Positions 3,071 to 61,423 of a stretch of 64,000 nucleotides of DNA are shown piece after piece. Both the position numbers and the translations under genes were made by a program. The notes below the pieces were generated by a model. It made no database searches, had not been told where the DNA came from, and saw nothing but the letters and a program-made list of their open reading frames with translations. Positions within the stretch are counted from its first letter, which is position 1. Each line of letters begins with the position of its first letter. Where the stretch lies: NCBI RefSeq assembly GCF_007859855.1, contig NZ_SJPK01000015.1:1-64000 (forward strand). The letters are read 5' to 3'. Source of the stretch: Allorhodopirellula solitaria. Lineage in GTDB: Bacteria; Planctomycetota; Planctomycetia; Pirellulales; Pirellulaceae.

Positions 3071-3319
3071 GGAAAATTCCAGTGAGATTGGCTTTGGTTG
3101 GATACTATCCAGGCAACGGTTCAGTCATACCGAGCACGCCGACTTCACCGCAAACCCGAATTTTGCCGTTTCGGTAAAGTCGAACGGTTGTAGTGGTCGA
3201 TCTGGTGATTCGTACGTCCTGCATGATAGTGTCACGCCGATGCACGTTTGGGCTCATGTTCGAGCCCTCCCCATTTAGGCTGCTCGGCGGCCCACCTCTC
3301 CCAGCGGAAACGCAGTCCC

Positions 3320-4789
3320 ATGACTCAGCCTCCTGAAACCCCAGACGCCTCGCTTCGAGCTGATTCCCCCAGCAAGGTGCTGGTCGGCAAACTCACCCCG
3401 TTGGTGCTGGGATTGGCCGGCTGCGGCGTGTTTTACGCGATCGTGCTGACAGTCAACTGGGCACCGTTGAACCGCTACTTCACTGGGCACCCCGTTTCGA
3501 TCGCCGCTACGACCCTCTTCTCCGTCGCACTGGCCATTCTTGCCATGATGTCGCTGAGAACCGCGTCGCAGCAACGCACCCTGCGGTTGCTGCGTGACAG
3601 CGATCTCTTGCCACCCTCGTCCGACGAGGACTCGCTCGAATCGCCGGCCCAACGTTGGCGAACCGAGAACGACGCCGGCCACGCTGCCCGACTTTGGCGT
3701 GCTACCCTCAGCCGCTTGCCTGTCAGCACTCGCAGAAGCGCCGTCGTGCGAAGACTCGATGAAGTGCTGACCCGGCAGAGCTACCGTTCGACGACCGGCG
3801 AACTGCCAGAGGACCTGCGAGAGCTATCCGTCCGCGATGCGGATGCCGCTCACGATTCGCTGGGTCTGATTCGCATCATTGTCTGGGCAATCCCCATGTT
3901 GGGATTTCTCGGTACCGTCATCGGCATTACCCAAACGCTCGGTGGACTTGATTTCTCCGACGGAACCGCCGCGGTCGACCGTTTGAAAAGCGGCTTGTAT
4001 GTGGCTTTCGACACGACGGCACTCGGCCTGGTTCTATCTGTCGTCGCTATCTTCCTACAGTTCCCCGTTGAGAGAGCGATGCAATCGCTGATCGTCGAAA
4101 TAGACGAACGGGTTCGAAACCTAGTTTCGATTGGATTGCCCAGCGACGAATCCGCTGACGATCAAACAGCGATGATCACGAGGTTGTGCAGCGGAATCGA
4201 AACCGCGGTCGCCGAATCGCTGGCGACTCAAGCCAAACTGTGGCGTGAGACGATCGAAGAGGCCCAGGATGCCTGGCGTAGCCAGCAGACCGAGGGAGCC
4301 GAACAGTTTCGTCAATTGCTGCAGTCGGCGATGAAACCGGCATTGACGCATCACGCCGACCGGATTGATGCATCGATCGGCCGGCTCGATAACGCAGCGA
4401 ATTCCGTGGGCAACGCACTGCGAGAACAAACTGCGGCTTGGCGTGCTGCCGTGCAGGAGACCACTTCCGAGGTGCACACCCATCGCCGGACCCTGCTGAC
4501 GCATACTGAAGCCATGACGACCCTTGCGTCGCGGCAGAGCGACCAGGACTCCTCGCTCAGGGACGCCCTGAAGCTTGTCGTTGCGGATCGCCAAAGCGAT
4601 GACCAGGCGGACTCCGCGGCGAGCTTCGATCCGGCCGTCACACAAGCGATGACCGTGCTCGCTCGCGCCGTGGATGTGCTCAGCTCGCGATTGCCAGCGT
4701 CCATGGAACAGCCGCTAGCACCGACTCAGCCCGAACAACGCGTTCGTGCTGCTGACGCAGCTGACTCCAACGTCGGGCGGGCCGCATGA
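3320..4789 (+). CDS. MotA/TolQ/ExbB-type proton channel protein
   Basis: 489 residues from the ATG at 3320, which follows a purine-rich AGCGGAAACG. Two N-terminal membrane helices (about residues 22-45 and 54-75) are followed by a soluble segment, then the conserved pair of the family at about 184-250. The second pair contains MLGFLGTVIGITQTLGGL and FDTTALGLVLSVVAIFLQF, the signature of TolQ/ExbB/MotA stators. The C-terminal 230 residues are a long, probably helical cytoplasmic tail. In this family the protein forms the proton path and works with a TolR/ExbD partner. The stop overlaps the next gene in an ATGA, so translational coupling is likely. The load driven by the motor is unknown. Confidence 0.88.
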   Translation: MTQPPETPDASLRADSPSKVLVGKLTPLVLGLAGCGVFYAIVLTVNWAPLNRYFTGHPVSIAATTLFSVALAILAMMSLRTASQQRTLRLLRDSDLLPPSSDEDSLESPAQRWRTENDAGHAARLWRATLSRLPVSTRRSAVVRRLDEVLTRQSYRSTTGELPEDLRELSVRDADAAHDSLGLIRIIVWAIPMLGFLGTVIGITQTLGGLDFSDGTAAVDRLKSGLYVAFDTTALGLVLSVVAIFLQFPVERAMQSLIVEIDERVRNLVSIGLPSDESADDQTAMITRLCSGIETAVAESLATQAKLWRETIEEAQDAWRSQQTEGAEQFRQLLQSAMKPALTHHADRIDASIGRLDNAANSVGNALREQTAAWRAAVQETTSEVHTHRRTLLTHTEAMTTLASRQSDQDSSLRDALKLVVADRQSDDQADSAASFDPAVTQAMTVLARAVDVLSSRLPASMEQPLAPTQPEQRVRAADAADSNVGRAA

Positions 4790-9201: not shown

Positions 9202-10041
9202 TCAATCGACCGAGGCATCGGTGACCGCGCCGACCACGTCTGCATCAAAATAGTTGATCGACATGCCAGCATCGACGATCAGGGATTGAGCCGTGATTCC
9301 ACTCGATCGGGGCGACAACAAAAATGCCGCCGTCGCAGCGACTTCATCTGTCTTCACCGCACGGCCGCGAGGGATGACCTTTTCGGCGTACAAGTAGGAA
9401 TCAACGTATCCAGGAATGCCCGCTGAGGCGCTCGTTTTCAGCAATCCGGCGGCGACACTATTGAATCGCACCTCGCTGAAGCGACTGAAGGACTTCGTCA
9501 AGAAAGCGAGCGATGACTCCAGCGCAGCTTTGATCGGAGCCATGAAGCCGTAACTCTCACTGGCCATGCGTGTGGTACTGATCCCGATCGTGACCACGGA
9601 GGCGTCTCGAGCGAATTGGTCTCGCAGTGCCTGGCAAACCGCAGTCAACGAAAATGCTGAGATATCCATGGCCTGCAAGAACTGCCGCCGCGTCGTTTCG
9701 TGAAACGGCCGCATGCCCTCGGAGTAGTCCGCGAAGGCAATGGCATGCACCAATCCCGCCAACTCGATATTCTCGCTAGCGAGTGTTTCGGCGAGTTGGT
9801 CGATTTGGCTCTGGTCCTCGACATCACACACAATCACACGGCGGTCCGCCAATAGCTTGGCGGTACTGTCGCGACGTGATTCACTGCGAACGGTATAGAT
9901 GACTTCGCCACCGGATTGCTCGACCAATCGGGCGATGCTCCAGGCAACGCTCTTCCGATTGGCCACGCCCATGACCAGAAATGTCTTTCCGGAGAATCCC
10001 AGGAAATCGATCGGGGTGGGAGCAGGACTGGATTCGCTCAC
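9202..10041 (-). CDS. fabI: Enoyl-[acyl-carrier-protein] reductase (NADH), FabI type
   Basis: 279 residues, a short-chain dehydrogenase fold. The dinucleotide site reads [13 protein letters not shown], the FabI form of the glycine motif. The active-site pair is Y164 and K171 (YGFMAPIK), with the six-residue spacing of FabI rather than the three of ordinary SDRs. It carries out the last reduction of each fatty-acid elongation cycle. Its start overlaps the fabZ stop by four bases (10038-10041), so the two dehydration/reduction enzymes are translated together. It belongs to the triclosan-target family; no unusual residue was noticed at the active site. Confidence 0.93.
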
Positions 10042-10556
10042 GGGGCAGTCCCCCCGCTACTCGCGTCAGCACCGCCGGGATTCGTGATACTGCAGGCAAA
10101 GTCGAGGCGTGTGGTGGTTTTACCGTTGAGTAGCATTTTCCCATTTAGAAAAAAGGCGTTGGCGAGACGTTCCTTGAGCGTGACGTGGATGTCCACGGTA
10201 TCACCTGGCCGCACCATGTTTTTGAACTTCACGCTATCCATCCGCGTGGCCACGGGCACGAAACCGCCCGCCTCGGGGGTCTGTTCGCTCAGCAGGATGG
10301 CGCCCGCTTGCAAACAGCATTCACACTGAATGACTCCCGGCACAAGTGGGTAGTCTGGGAAATGCCCCTGCACAAAATAGTCGTTGCTGGAAAAGGTCTT
10401 CCGCGCGTGAATCGTCGATTCCGTCAATTCGACGACTTCATCGAGCAGGAGCATCGGCGTGCGATGCGGGATTTTTCGCTCGATTTCCGCAATCCCCATC
10501 GGGGCGTTCGCTGAGGAGCGAGCATCGGAATCAGGCGGGATCGAGGCGGCAGTCAT
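10038..10556 (-). CDS. fabZ: 3-hydroxyacyl-[acyl-carrier-protein] dehydratase, FabZ type
   Basis: 172 residues. The hot-dog fold signature [13 protein letters not shown] is followed by [16 protein letters not shown], with H65 and E79 at the same spacing (14) as the catalytic pair of E. coli FabZ. It dehydrates 3-hydroxyacyl-ACP to trans-2-enoyl-ACP, the substrate of the FabI encoded next. The first 20 residues are low-complexity, and an in-frame ATG at about 10499 ([13 protein letters not shown]) may be the real start. The overlap with fabI argues for one transcript. Confidence 0.92.
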
Positions 10557-10649: not shown

Positions 10650-11816
10650 CTAAGTAGCGGTCGAACCCTCAGCTGATTTCTGCAGCCCCATCAAATACTC
10701 GACCAAATCGACAAGCTGCTCCGCGGTCATCAATCGCTGCAGATCCTGCGGCATCATCGACTGAGACTTTTTCTCGAACAACTCCACGGCCTCACGGTCC
10801 ACCGTCCGGTCGATGCCCTCATTGGTCCGCAGGGTGATCGCGGCATCGGTTTGGCTGATCAACAACCCCGTGAAAGCGGTGCCATCGTCGGTGAGCAGCA
10901 CGTACGTTTCGAAGTTATGACTGACTGCCGCACTCGGGTCGAGAATCGCGACGAACATCGCTTCACGCGAGAGTTTGCTGCCGATTTCTGAAAGATCGGG
11001 GCCGACCTCTTTCCCCTCACCGTGGATCTTGTGGCATTCGATGCAGGTTCCTGGCTCGCGAAACACCTTGGCTCCTGTTGCGACATCGCCTCTTCGCTTG
11101 GCCAGCTCGACAACGGGAGGCAGCGGTTGGCTATCGGCGGTCTCGGGTAGCGAGAGATACTTACTCGCTTCTTCCACAGCTTCCGCGTTCGGGGATGCCA
11201 AGAGCACGTTTGCGGCAGCAAATTTCAGCTCGTCAGGAAGTGCCGTTTCTTTGACCATGCTGAGGATCTGGGTTTGACCGTCGATCTGCCTGCCCATCGC
11301 GGTCAACGCGGCAATGCGGCGATCCATGGATGTTTCACCCGATGTCACCAACGGCAGTAAAGACTCGACTGTTTTGCCGCGACCGCTTCTCCCGATTAAC
11401 GCGATCGCTGTCATCGCACGCTCCGAATCGTCGGCCTCGGCGACGTCGAGCAACCGCTTCTGTTGCCCCATCGCGAACAGCAATTCCGCTGCCCGGACTC
11501 CCTCGGTCTCGTTGGCATGTTCCAAACCAAAAGCGGCCAAATCGGGAGCAATCTCAACCGGTTTAAAACGCCTGATCAGGTCAAAGGACTGCTTCGATCC
11601 CAAGCGGGCACGCAGATAGCGCAGCACAGCCGCCTTCGCCGGAGCCGACGACTCCAACTGAAAACTCTGCAATCGCAGCACGGTCTCAACAACGAGCTTG
11701 TCTTGAGGAGACAGCTCGCCCCCGTCATCGGCGGCTGGCAGAAGGGGACCAGGCAGAAGGGGACAGGCAAAGATCGTGAGCAGAATCAGGATCGCTGGGC
11801 GAAGTCGCGGAGTCAT
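10650..11816 (-). CDS. Exported HEAT-like plus cytochrome c protein, Pirellula/Verrucomicrobium type
   Basis: 388 residues with a signal peptide (residues 1-29, containing a PLLPGPLLPA duplication coded by a short tandem repeat). Residues about 40-235 look like alpha-helical HEAT-type repeats. The haem site is CIECH at 258-262, followed by GPDLSEIGSKLSREAMFVAI and the C-terminal DLVEYLMGL helix, which is the layout of the haem-binding domain known in planctomycetes and verrucomicrobia. It lies 92 bases downstream of the propeller gene (11908-14337); in many relatives these parts are fused in one chain. Electron acceptor for a periplasmic sugar dehydrogenase is the likely role, by inference. 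Confidence 0.87.
   Translation of the reverse strand: MTPRLRPAILILLTIFACPLLPGPLLPAADDGGELSPQDKLVVETVLRLQSFQLESSAPAKAAVLRYLRARLGSKQSFDLIRRFKPVEIAPDLAAFGLEHANETEGVRAAELLFAMGQQKRLLDVAEADDSERAMTAIALIGRSGRGKTVESLLPLVTSGETSMDRRIAALTAMGRQIDGQTQILSMVKETALPDELKFAAANVLLASPNAEAVEEASKYLSLPETADSQPLPPVVELAKRRGDVATGAKVFREPGTCIECHKIHGEGKEVGPDLSEIGSKLSREAMFVAILDPSAAVSHNFETYVLLTDDGTAFTGLLISQTDAAITLRTNEGIDRTVDREAVELFEKKSQSMMPQDLQRLMTAEQLVDLVEYLMGLQKSAEGSTAT
11738..11765. repeat. Short tandem duplication in a signal-peptide region
   Basis: The unit GGCAGAAGGGGAC occurs twice in direct succession, at 11737 and 11752. It codes on the minus strand for the repeated PLLPG of the signal peptide of the cytochrome gene. 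Confidence 0.85.
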
Positions 11817-11907: not shown

Positions 11908-14337
11908 CTACAGTCCGAGCAGCGATCGCAGCGCGGCGTCTTTCGCAGGTCCTTCATGAAAATCGAAGGCCCGCATGAAATGATCGTGCTGCTCGACCGG
12001 GGTATCTGGGTCCTGCAGAATCTTCACCAGCAAGGCGGCAGCTTTCGGTGCGCGGCTGCGCCAGACAATCTCTCGACCGCCGGAGGTGTTCCAGTCTCCG
12101 TCAACGAGTTCCAACCAAGCATCAAAGTACGCTTCGGCGTGCCCGTTGCCAGCGCCGATCCCGAGTGCTTCGAGATACCACCGATCGCTGCCATCATACT
12201 GCTTTGCGAGCGTTGCCCATACCTTCGCAGCTCGCGGCGAGTCGCTGCGCCGCAGCGAGATCGCCAGCTCCCGCCGCACCGCGGCAGATGCGTCCCGCTC
12301 AACCTTCGCAGCGTAGTCCGCCAAGTCGATCCCCAATTGCCGCGCCAATCGGATCCCCACGATACGGATGTTCTTATCGTCGTCACCAAGAGCTTCGTTC
12401 ACCGTCTCGAGACCGCGGCCCTCGATCTTGCCCAACAACCACAAGGCGCGAGCACGGTAGATCGGGTTGTCCGAACGGGCCAGCTCGAGCAGACCAGCTT
12501 CTGCGCTGGTACCTTGGGCGCGTAGTGACTGCCAAGCCAAAGCACGGGCCGCGTCGTTGGGGCTTTGGAGTGCCTCGACCGCTCCGCCTATGGAGTCAAA
12601 GTCGTAGGTAGGCACGTCGTATTTCACGTTACCTTTTCGTGGCGTCATGCGAAACAAACGGCCGCGATCGACATCGCCCATGCCATGGCCCCCCACCCCG
12701 GGATCGTACCAATCAGCGATCACGAGTGATCCATCCGGCGCAACCTTCACATCGGAAGGACGGAACCATCGATCCTGGGTCCCCTTGAGAATGTCTCGGA
12801 TCTTCGCTTGATAGCCCGCTCCGTCGCTCTTGAGTAGATACGCGCGGCAGACGTTCGGACCAGCATCGCAGTGAATGAGATCACCGCGAAACATTGGCAA
12901 CAGATCGCCTTCATAGACGGTGATTCCTGTCGGAGACCCCGCACCGGTGTGCAGAAGATTGGGGACGACACCGGGGTCGTTCTGGTGCCAATGTCGCTCG
13001 ACGATGACATCACTCATACCGGTGCGCTGCGAACGCCAACCGGCGCCGGTCAGTTCGTCCTTATAGCCGTAATTGCCAAACTCCATGACGAAGTTGATCC
13101 GGCAACTTTGGTTTCCGTCGTCATCGTTGTCCGACTGCCAAATCGTCCCGTAGGAGTCGACCGCGACCATCCAATTGTTCCGAAAGTTCCACGCTAGCGT
13201 CTCGAACTCAGTTCCGTCGAGATTGCAGCGAAACACCATCCCGTCCTGGTAGGGTTGTCGATGATTATTGACGACGTTGCCGGCTTGGTCGACGATCCGA
13301 TTGCCAGCGGCGTCTCTGATCTGACGCCCCTCGTTGCCGATATTGAAGTAGAGTTTTCCATCGGGACCAAATCGGAACGCGTGGATGCCATGATCGTGCT
13401 GAGTCCCCGAAATCCCGCTGAACAAAACCCGCTGCTCGTCGGGCCGATCATCGCCGTCTCGGTCAGTGAACACCTGCACTTTATCGCCAGCCGACACGAT
13501 GACTTGATCGCCAAGAACACAGACGCCGTGAGGCGAATTGATGTCATTGCCTTGGTAGAACACCTTCTCGCTGTCGCACAATCCATCGCCGTCGGTATCC
13601 TCGAGAATGAGGATCCGATCGCCCTCAGCCCGTTCGCCGTTGTGCCCGCGATAATTGACGACTTCGCAAACCCACACGCGACCCCGATGGTCGATGTCAA
13701 TATTCGAGGGGCTCAGCAATTGGGGTTCGCCAGCAAAGAGGCTAGCCGTGAGAGCTTGCCCGACTTCTAAACCCGCCAACGCGTCAGCAACGTCGTGCGA
13801 TGCGGCGCCCTGGGCTGCGGCGATCTCTGGAGGTTCAGAGGTGTAAACGAGAAACTGGACACTCGCCTCGTTTCCGCAGGCGCCTTGGTCGGTACCACCG
13901 TTGTCCAAGCCTCCGATCGCGCGAAACCGGTCGTAACCTTTGGGAACACGATACGCGATGACTGAATTGGCGTGGGTGCCGATTCCATACTCGATCGGCT
14001 CACCGGCGATCTGCAGTGGCGTGCCACCGGAACTTTTGTTAACGCGGACCTTCCCGAAGCCAGCGACCGCTGACTCCCACGTCAGTTCCGTGAGCTTCTT
14101 TTCGCCCTTTGGTCCGATCAAACGCGGCAGGGCCCAATCGGCCCAATCACACGAGAATCCGTTGCCACCATCGTTGACGACGAGATAAATCTCACTGGCG
14201 CCGTTGAGTTCGACATCGATCTCGACGCTGTGTCCGCTCGTTTGACTGGTGACGATCTCACTTTGAAAGACTGGCTTGGACGCTTGACGCTTTACCCGAG
14301 CGACGGAGCGTTTGACTTGCGGAGCTCTTTTTTTTTT
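11908..14337 (-). CDS. NPCBM plus beta-propeller (PVC-type dehydrogenase) plus HEAT region; probably read by frameshift from ThuA
   Basis: The frame ends at 11908. No ATG or GTG start exists where the first domain begins; the nearest is a TTG at 14121, which would cut an NPCBM domain (GIGTHANSVIAYRVP further on) in half. The same frame stays open upstream, reading VFQSEIVTSQTSGHSVEID, back to a run of ten A residues (minus strand; 14328-14337) inside the end of the ThuA gene. After the NPCBM part, residues from about VGQALTASLFAGEP to LFRMTPRK form the planctomycete membrane-bound dehydrogenase propeller, with Asp-rich DTDGDGLCD and DRDGDDRPDE loops. The C-terminal 200 residues are HEAT-like. 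No signal peptide is present, which fits export as a fusion with ThuA. Reading by -1 slippage is an inference; a plain inactivating frameshift or a sequencing error is the alternative. Confidence 0.75.
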   Translation of the reverse strand, partial: KKKRAPQVKRSVARVKRQASKPVFQSEIVTSQTSGHSVEIDVELNGASEIYLVVNDGGNGFSCDWADWALPRLIGPKGEKKLTELTWESAVAGFGKVRVNKSSGGTPLQIAGEPIEYGIGTHANSVIAYRVPKGYDRFRAIGGLDNGGTDQGACGNEASVQFLVYTSEPPEIAAAQGAASHDVADALAGLEVGQALTASLFAGEPQLLSPSNIDIDHRGRVWVCEVVNYRGHNGERAEGDRILILEDTDGDGLCDSEKVFYQGNDINSPHGVCVLGDQVIVSAGDKVQVFTDRDGDDRPDEQRVLFSGISGTQHDHGIHAFRFGPDGKLYFNIGNEGRQIRDAAGNRIVDQAGNVVNNHRQPYQDGMVFRCNLDGTEFETLAWNFRNNWMVAVDSYGTIWQSDNDDDGNQSCRINFVMEFGNYGYKDELTGAGWRSQRTGMSDVIVERHWHQNDPGVVPNLLHTGAGSPTGITVYEGDLLPMFRGDLIHCDAGPNVCRAYLLKSDGAGYQAKIRDILKGTQDRWFRPSDVKVAPDGSLVIADWYDPGVGGHGMGDVDRGRLFRMTPRKGNVKYDVPTYDFDSIGGAVEALQSPNDAARALAWQSLRAQGTSAEAGLLELARSDNPIYRARALWLLGKIEGRGLETVNEALGDDDKNIRIVGIRLARQLGIDLADYAAKVERDASAAVRRELAISLRRSDSPRAAKVWATLAKQYDGSDRWYLEALGIGAGNGHAEAYFDAWLELVDGDWNTSGGREIVWRSRAPKAAALLVKILQDPDTPVEQHDHFMRAFDFHEGPAKDAALRSLLGL

Positions 14338-15272
14338 GCGGCGCCGGCATTTCGTTTCGGCTGCGGCTTGGGCTCGTCTTGGTTTGCTTCGAGTTCCGCC
14401 TCGGTGGGATTCGGAGTGCTGACGCCACTATCGGGAACGTCATCATGGGCAGTCCAAACGATCGCATTGAGCATGACCTTGCGAAAGTTTTCGTCGGCCC
14501 AATTCCAGTGGAAATGGCCACCGGTGAACCCGAATCCACGTCCCCCGTCCTCTCGATCGGCGGCCCACGCCATGTGCTGGATCTCGCCCTCGGCGACAGC
14601 TTTGCGGACAGCAGGGTTGCCGCTGTGCGGGCCATCGGGTCGCCGCATCGTCGATTCCGGCGGATGAGCGGACAGGATCGGCGTGACACCTTCCATTTCG
14701 TCACGAAACCGCATGTGGAAGTACCACTCATCGTTAATCTGAAACGGCTCCACACCACGGCTAATCGGGTGAGCAGGAAAAGCTTCGAACTTTGCTACCC
14801 AGTGCGGGTTGACCGACCACCCGGCTTCGAAATAGCCGCCCATCCAGTCGAGGAAAGCGTCACCAGTTTTCCCTTTGGGCGTCTCGACTCCGTAGTGGAT
14901 ACAGACCAAACCGGCCCCCGCTTTCATCAACGGGTCGAACTCGTCGACATGCGGGTTGAGCAAATGCCGCGACCCACCGTCACAGTACACGACGATGGAA
15001 TCGGCATCCTTCAAGGCGTCTGCGCCTTCTTTAGGCCAACCCTCCTTCATGACCACCACGTCATAATCAGGTTTGGCTTCCTTCAAAGCTTCAGCGAGCA
15101 ATCGACATCCCGCATAATGCTCGTGCGCTCCGTATCCATGGGAGGGACGCCCCGCGAGAAACACAATCTTCTTGGCATCAGTCGCACCGGCGCTCGGAGC
15201 ATCCGCAGCCAACGAGGGAATCTGGCCAGCGGGCAGTAGGGTGAGCAAGCAGAGAACGCGGAGTAGTCGCAT
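14292..15272 (-). CDS. Exported ThuA-domain protein
   Basis: 326 residues from the ATG at 15272, chosen because a signal peptide (MRLLRVLCLLTLLPAG) starts there; an upstream in-frame ATG at 15386 adds 38 residues before it. The ThuA (trehalose-utilisation, glutamine-amidotransferase-like) fold is shown by KIVFLAGRPSHGYGAHEH, the central VCIHYGVE, and late GFGFTGGHFHWNW. The last 35 residues are charged and low-complexity and pass through an A10 run (14328-14337); in the zero frame they end at 14292 in an unremarkable tail. A -1 shift on the A run would fuse the protein to the NPCBM/propeller frame downstream. ThuA domains are linked to sugar metabolism, but the exact reaction here is unknown. 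Confidence 0.87.
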   Translation of the reverse strand: MRLLRVLCLLTLLPAGQIPSLAADAPSAGATDAKKIVFLAGRPSHGYGAHEHYAGCRLLAEALKEAKPDYDVVVMKEGWPKEGADALKDADSIVVYCDGGSRHLLNPHVDEFDPLMKAGAGLVCIHYGVETPKGKTGDAFLDWMGGYFEAGWSVNPHWVAKFEAFPAHPISRGVEPFQINDEWYFHMRFRDEMEGVTPILSAHPPESTMRRPDGPHSGNPAVRKAVAEGEIQHMAWAADREDGGRGFGFTGGHFHWNWADENFRKVMLNAIVWTAHDDVPDSGVSTPNPTEAELEANQDEPKPQPKRNAGAAKKKELRKSNAPSLG

Positions 15273-61102: not shown

Positions 61103-61423
61103 GGGTTCATCCGACGGAAGCGTGCGCAGAGCACCGCGGAAGGTTTTTTTTTGAGGCATGGCTCTAGATCCAATGATCGTTCAAAAATGCGTCCCTGACG
61201 AACAAACGCTCGCCAGGGAGCGACAACACCATTGGCGTACCGCTTTTGCAGGGAAACGCTGGCGACCGAGATATCCCTTGCCAAGCCCGCACCTCTGCAG
61301 AGCTCGGCTCCGTTTCTCCCGGAAGTGCCAGTCTAACATTGATAATCACATCCCACAAATCAATCCTTCGATACTGGAGCCATGCCTTGAAAACCTCGGC
61401 CGCACGCTGCCGTCGGATGAGCC
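61103..61423. mobile_element. MITE-like inverted-repeat element, copy D, with 7-bp target duplication
   Basis: About 321 bases, in the opposite orientation to copies B and C. Its left end starts GGGTTCATCCGACGGAAGCG and the right end closes with CCGTCGGATGAGCC. TCGTTTA flanks it on both sides (61096-61102 and 61424-61430), a clear target-site duplication of 7 bases (8 if the shared C is counted). The right copy of TCGTTTA overlaps the NfeD stop codon, so the element inserted exactly at the end of that gene. No transposase is encoded. Confidence 0.9.

Follow-up and report, generated by a model that had tools for sequence, protein, structure and literature searches.

Probable programmed transcriptional slippage at recurrent poly-A runs in ThuA-NPCBM-propeller genes of Allorhodopirellula solitaria and related bacteria

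In Allorhodopirellula solitaria and many of its relatives, one gene probably encodes two proteins, a ThuA protein and a ThuA-NPCBM-propeller fusion, by means of programmed transcriptional slippage on a long run of A's. Based on the comparison of homologous loci, we assign this reading a probability of about 0.8. Programmed slippage is strongly supported by this comparison and most likely takes place during transcription. The mechanism is of a known kind, and what is unusual is its recurrence in ThuA-NPCBM-propeller genes. RNA polymerase acting on the run of ten A's (A10) would release mRNAs with varying numbers of A's. With the templated ten A's, a transcript would be translated into a secreted ThuA protein whose stop lies 11 codons past the run, and the gain of one A (or the loss of two) would lead to a fusion of approximately 1,120 residues with the order ThuA-NPCBM-propeller-HEAT. 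Slippage, its transcriptional level and the ratio of the two products are what we infer.

The window, i.e. the whole stretch of 64,000 nucleotides analysed, contains the junction on the minus strand. Direct reading of the letters gave exactly ten A's at 14337-14328, embedded in the ThuA-frame codons GCA AAA AAA AAA GAG, with the slippery heptamer A_AAA_AAA in phase within the run. The ThuA frame (14292-15272, minus strand) begins with ATG and yields a short product of 326 aa, consisting of a hydrophobic N-terminus whose likeness to a signal peptide was judged by eye, a ThuA domain (Pfam PF06283, E 1.6e-20, 74.7 bits against a cut-off of 33.4) and the tail KKKELRKSNAPSLG. Its TAA stop codon occupies 14294-14292, 11 codons past the run and hence not adjacent to it. 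The preliminary description had rightly placed a stop soon after the run; its distance of 34 bases has to be corrected to 33 bases between run and stop codon. The NPCBM/propeller frame lies at -1 relative to ThuA, is open through the run from 14427 to 11908 and would, once slippage has joined it to ThuA, supply the C-terminal portion of the long product. Joining both frames takes one additional A or two fewer A's in the run. As described before, the propeller frame offers no start at its first domain: neither ATG and GTG nor TTG occurs upstream of the NPCBM match, and a TTG at 14121 is the earliest start listed.

The profile matches divide between the two frames, with ThuA on the upstream frame and NPCBM, DUF7133, GSDH and HEAT_2 (all Pfam) on the downstream frame. 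The best stretch of NPCBM spans 13837-14100 and is followed by the DUF7133 match (12703-13788), which is overlapped by a GSDH-like match and by the NCBIfam profile TIGR02604 for PVC-type heme-binding CxxCH proteins (307 bits, cut-off 122.2), and by HEAT repeats at 12367-12579. The heme domain TIGR02603 is not located on the propeller frame. It sits on a separate downstream gene (10650-11816, minus strand) with its own ATG, coding for a cytochrome-c-type heme-binding protein according to Pfam and NCBIfam; no long A run was found between this gene and the propeller frame. Further downstream on the same strand, FabA-like and short-chain dehydrogenase genes are located at 9202-10556. The window also contains a run of nine A's (A9) on the minus strand at 61144-61152, and the reading frames that cross it are all shorter than 100 codons.

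Homologues were collected by a genus search (13 genomes), a scan of named genomes, from which 80 of 107 loci were retained, and a family search, in which 161 of 241 genomes had a match. From these 161, and among the matches listed, 145 genomes were read, leaving out G095 and second copies in some genomes. In seven of these, no ThuA could be read beside NPCBM, so that 138 genomes, the window's own included, make up the family sample. A locus was called fused when one frame crosses the ThuA and NPCBM matches; this class includes the run-less L052, which has an in-frame stop where NPCBM begins, and G104 carries one TAG inside the match. In agreement with the preliminary description, most homologues contain a single uninterrupted ThuA-NPCBM-propeller frame: 108 of the 138 genomes are fused and lack a long A run, 15 are fused with A9-A11, and 15 are split with A9-A10. 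None of the 108 run-less genes is split (Fisher p 3.6e-12, related genomes being treated as independent). Since 108 of the 138 family genomes manage without a run, two products are not generally required. The downstream frame lies at -1 in 13 of the 15 splits and at +1 in two. One of the +1 splits, in Rhodopirellula maiorica SM1 (L088, A9), may be a sequence error because its propeller frame breaks a second time further on; the other belongs to G040, an assembly of 10 contigs. Runs of A's are present in 11 of 44 genera. They include Blastopirellula marina DSM 3645 (L055, A10, fused) and Roseimaritima sediminicola (L038, A9, split), and in the genus g8 all four species carry the run in three different frame settings.

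The lengths of the runs and the positions of nearby stops depart from chance. Altogether 214 loci were examined; ThuA was missing near NPCBM in 23 and an NPCBM-type match in four, and the 187 loci with both provided 170 distinct linkers. Within a linker, the longest run of A's measured 2-6 in 136 cases, 7 in three, 8 in none, 9 in nine, 10 in 21 and 11 in one, and thus A9-A11 occupies the same junction as in the window in 31 of the 170 loci. A synonymous-codon null, in which codons were redrawn 300 times from each gene's own usage, expects 8.6 loci with nine or more A's on average and 15 at most. The length curve of this null declines, with an expected ratio of A7-A8 to A9-A11 of 2.59 versus 3 to 31 seen. 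In the same genes, only four runs of at least nine A's were found in 351 kb outside the linker, three of them at the joint between DUF1080 and ThuA, whereas the 27 kb of linker contained 31 loci with such a run. A stop in the -1 frame lies within seven codons in each of the 16 fused carriers of the run (null 18-28%), and a stop in the +1 frame does so in five of the 16 (null 12-14%). Among the split carriers, the zero-frame stop follows within two codons in 11 of 15 (null 5%) and after 11-14 codons in four, the window included. Both the run and the stop tests treat related loci as independent, and the null fractions for near stops were calculated with a linker window that did not reach the run of L134. 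An additional A10 was seen in the fused gene L127, inside the NPCBM region (GPAGKKKLTEL).

In a phylogenetic tree, from which L043 was omitted as a copy of L166, the run was gained or lost at least 17 times, 12 of these changes being forced by well-supported branches, and the frame state changed at least 10 times among the 31 run carriers. The fused L203 and the split L206 illustrate such a change. Both carry A10 and an open propeller frame, and the split in L206 is caused by two extra bases just past the run that none of its four aligned relatives has. Purifying selection acts on the split propellers, though more weakly in the pair L172-L176. Between the window and G006, both split, the propellers share 79% amino acid identity (NG86 dN 0.14, dS 2.9 and thus saturated, 792 codons); for the split genes of G007 and G012, dN was 0.028 and dS 0.35 over 1151 codons. 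The values for ThuA in these two pairs resemble those for the propeller. The split genes L172 and L176 yielded dN 0.17 and dS 0.48 over 210 propeller codons, a weaker constraint than on their ThuA part (0.06 and 0.57). All values are NG86 estimates with saturated dS in some pairs, and about 210 propeller codons were covered for most family loci.

The replication gene dnaX is a classic slippage gene, and the genome of A. solitaria carries a run in this gene as well. Only 10 A/T runs of nine or more occur in the 6.8-Mb genome. Three of them have a length of 10, located at the ThuA junction, in dnaX (L250, identified with Pfam) and in a PKS/PUFA-type synthase. Across the 13 genomes of the genus, dnaX is fused with A10 in 11, with near stops in both other frames, and split at A9 in two, namely L302 (G011) and L307 (G004). 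In a wider sample of the family (30 genomes searched), 23 of the 29 dnaX genes found possess A9 or A10. The six without a run are all the dnaX genes found in the genera g8 and g65, where the run is nevertheless present at the ThuA junction, so dnaX is no control for those genera. The synthase, a protein of 2404 aa with ketoacyl synthase, acyltransferase, ACP and KR domains (L263, 1246-8460, minus strand, on C10 of the same genome), contains its A10 (GAA AAA AAA AAC, 65396-65405) in a linker after the ACPs and is a candidate for a third slippage site. An A10 in matching context is present in five more genomes of the genus (L268, L276, L278, L288 and L290), with stops in the other frames 2-10 codons on. 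The C-terminal part of the L263 synthase contains a tandem repeat with a unit of roughly 26 aa (VDRRLRPSREVAADGESRRSEPSDYN).

The main rival to transcriptional slippage is programmed -1 ribosomal frameshifting at A_AAA_AAA, by which both products would come from a uniform mRNA. By inspection, every A9-A11 run holds this heptamer in the needed phase, and the direction is one-sided, with 13 of 15 splits at -1 and near stops in the -1 frame of all 16 fused carriers versus five in the +1 frame; in the dnaX genes of the genus, unlike at the ThuA junction, near stops occur in both frames. This one-sidedness is the strongest argument for the ribosome, but it would also follow from a bias toward added A's, such as that of the tssM1 mRNA, in which 11 templated A's become 10-15. 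For ribosomal shifting A7 or A6G would suffice, yet A8 is absent as longest run, and of the A6-A7 sites listed for fused linkers that lack a run, none is an in-phase A_AAA_AAG. The two +1 splits, G040 being one, also speak against it. The heptamer of E. coli dnaX is accompanied by stimulators, whereas the ThuA junction is a run of A9-A11 at which no consistent stimulators were found. In the 30 run loci tested (L134 left out), a Shine-Dalgarno-like motif upstream was missing in 27 and present in three, the window not being one of them. Folds of the downstream 60 bases had a mean z of -0.77, reaching -2 or lower in five of the 30 loci and -5.55 in L136; most were ordinary, as in the window (z 0.03). 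Ribosomal frameshifting is thus the less favoured part of the earlier proposal of a -1 shift or an extra A in the mRNA, and we regard it as unlikely. The extra A introduced by RNA polymerase is favoured because of the run-length threshold, the shifts in both directions, the lack of consistent ribosomal stimulators and the A10 of dnaX in the same genome.

Phase variation at the DNA level, in which the run would differ in length between cells and thereby toggle the fusion, is suggested by closely related species that differ in run length and frame. Run carriers span only 9 to 11 A's (one genome per species compared), the frame switch in L206 results from two bases beside an unchanged A10, and dnaX toggles likewise, which makes this explanation very improbable. 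An error in sequencing or assembly, or a gene that broke recently, both considered in the preliminary description, might be expected from the error-prone nature of homopolymers and from the single frame of most homologues. Neither gains support from the survey: all 15 family splits fall on A9 or A10 and 13 have the same direction, six split genomes are listed as single contigs (G012, G162, G165, G170, G204 and G206), neighbouring species share the split state (the window with G006, and G007 with G012), and dN/dS is low in these two pairs. We give this explanation hardly any credence, and the same applies to two independent genes with re-initiation of the propeller at an internal start. Separate adjacent genes with their own starts and signal-peptide-like fronts, the arrangement named beforehand as evidence against slippage, do exist in three run-less splits outside the family (L075, L087 and L090, in records titled Proteobacteria, Akkermansia and Verrucomicrobia), and they are absent among the 138 family genomes read. 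Of the 15 split loci, 10 contain no ATG, GTG or TTG before the NPCBM match and four contain at least one (L134 was left out), and a re-initiated product would lack a signal peptide.

Transcriptional slippage at the ThuA junction resembles several described systems. In Thermus thermophilus dnaX, slippage on A9 leads to 50% short product (PMC1088944, excerpt), and as in the ThuA genes the run lies between a shared front and an optional back part, with near stops in the other frames and two products (PMC1088944, PMC5009743, excerpts). The ThuA genes differ from it in gene and function, in that the DNA is often out of frame and in the repeated gain and loss of the run. The interrupted tssM1 gene of Citrobacter rodentium likewise needs slippage for its long form; its A11 gives mRNA products with 10-15 A's and both forms are made (PMC4256274, excerpt). 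This secretion-system protein is one of two cases named in the excerpt of PMC4256274, while the ThuA runs are spread over many genera and are not confined to a single domain joint. Excerpts of PMC3711429 provide further parallels. E. coli dnaX, with its -1 ribosomal frameshift at A_AAA_AAG, shares two products from one gene and the -1 direction with most of our cases; split dnaX with ten A's is reported from other genera; and GeneTack poly-A clusters such as magnesium chelatase also consist of two frames joined at poly-A and have fused homologues. According to the same excerpts, slippage efficiency in E. coli rises with the number of A's, from 10 to 40 and 63% at 7, 9 and 11 A's. The main text of PMC3711429 does not name ThuA, Rhodopirellula or Blastopirellula, and a search of titles and the beginnings of abstracts, mostly outside subscription journals and supplements, retrieved no paper on slippage in the ThuA family.

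Few non-mobile cellular genes are known to use transcriptional slippage, which agrees with the papers cited. The ThuA proteins, a family of secreted enzymes, seem to rely on it across many genera, and dnaX serves as a control in most sampled genomes. Their junctions supply a large set of natural A9-A11 sites, fused as well as split. Annotation may wrongly present genes of this kind as pseudogenes or as pairs of genes. The family names (ThuA, 3-keto-disaccharide hydrolase, carbohydrate-binding module, sugar-dehydrogenase-like propeller and heme proteins) suggest a role in periplasmic sugar oxidation. DnaX tau and gamma have a common front part, and by analogy one might guess that the two ThuA forms assemble into one complex, with the sugar-binding and redox arm present on only part of its ThuA subunits. 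When ThuA was compared with the sequences in the PDB no match was returned, and structures gave no argument on the arrangement of subunits.

A second joint of the same proteins carries similar runs. In 69 loci, one of them a duplicate, a DUF1080-like domain lies just before ThuA, and A9 or A10 is present at this joint in 12 of the 69. Six of these are fused and six split (five without the duplicate), and in every split with a run the stop follows directly after it; five further splits are run-less. The longest run was 7 in five loci, 8 in three, 9 in one and 10 in 11, a less clean separation of lengths than at the ThuA-NPCBM joint. Moreover, in L091 from a Phycisphaeraceae MAG (3132-3950 and on), a DUF1080 protein (Pfam 3keto-disac_hyd) ends with A10-TAG, past which the -1 frame continues as NPCBM-propeller. 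A wider reading would be that, in a secreted modular sugar-redox family (DUF1080-ThuA-NPCBM-propeller-cytochrome), poly-A slippage sites evolve repeatedly at the domain boundaries DUF1080/ThuA, ThuA/NPCBM and DUF1080/NPCBM and give nested ladders of products. Selection would then keep the run and a nearby stop rather than the DNA frame, making fused and split states interchangeable. The chances of the wider reading appear even, its odds being lowered by the A7-A8 counts at the DUF1080-ThuA joint. An A10 at this joint, in split or fused genes, was observed in L132, L146, L166, L171, L175 and others, and L175 has runs at both joints.
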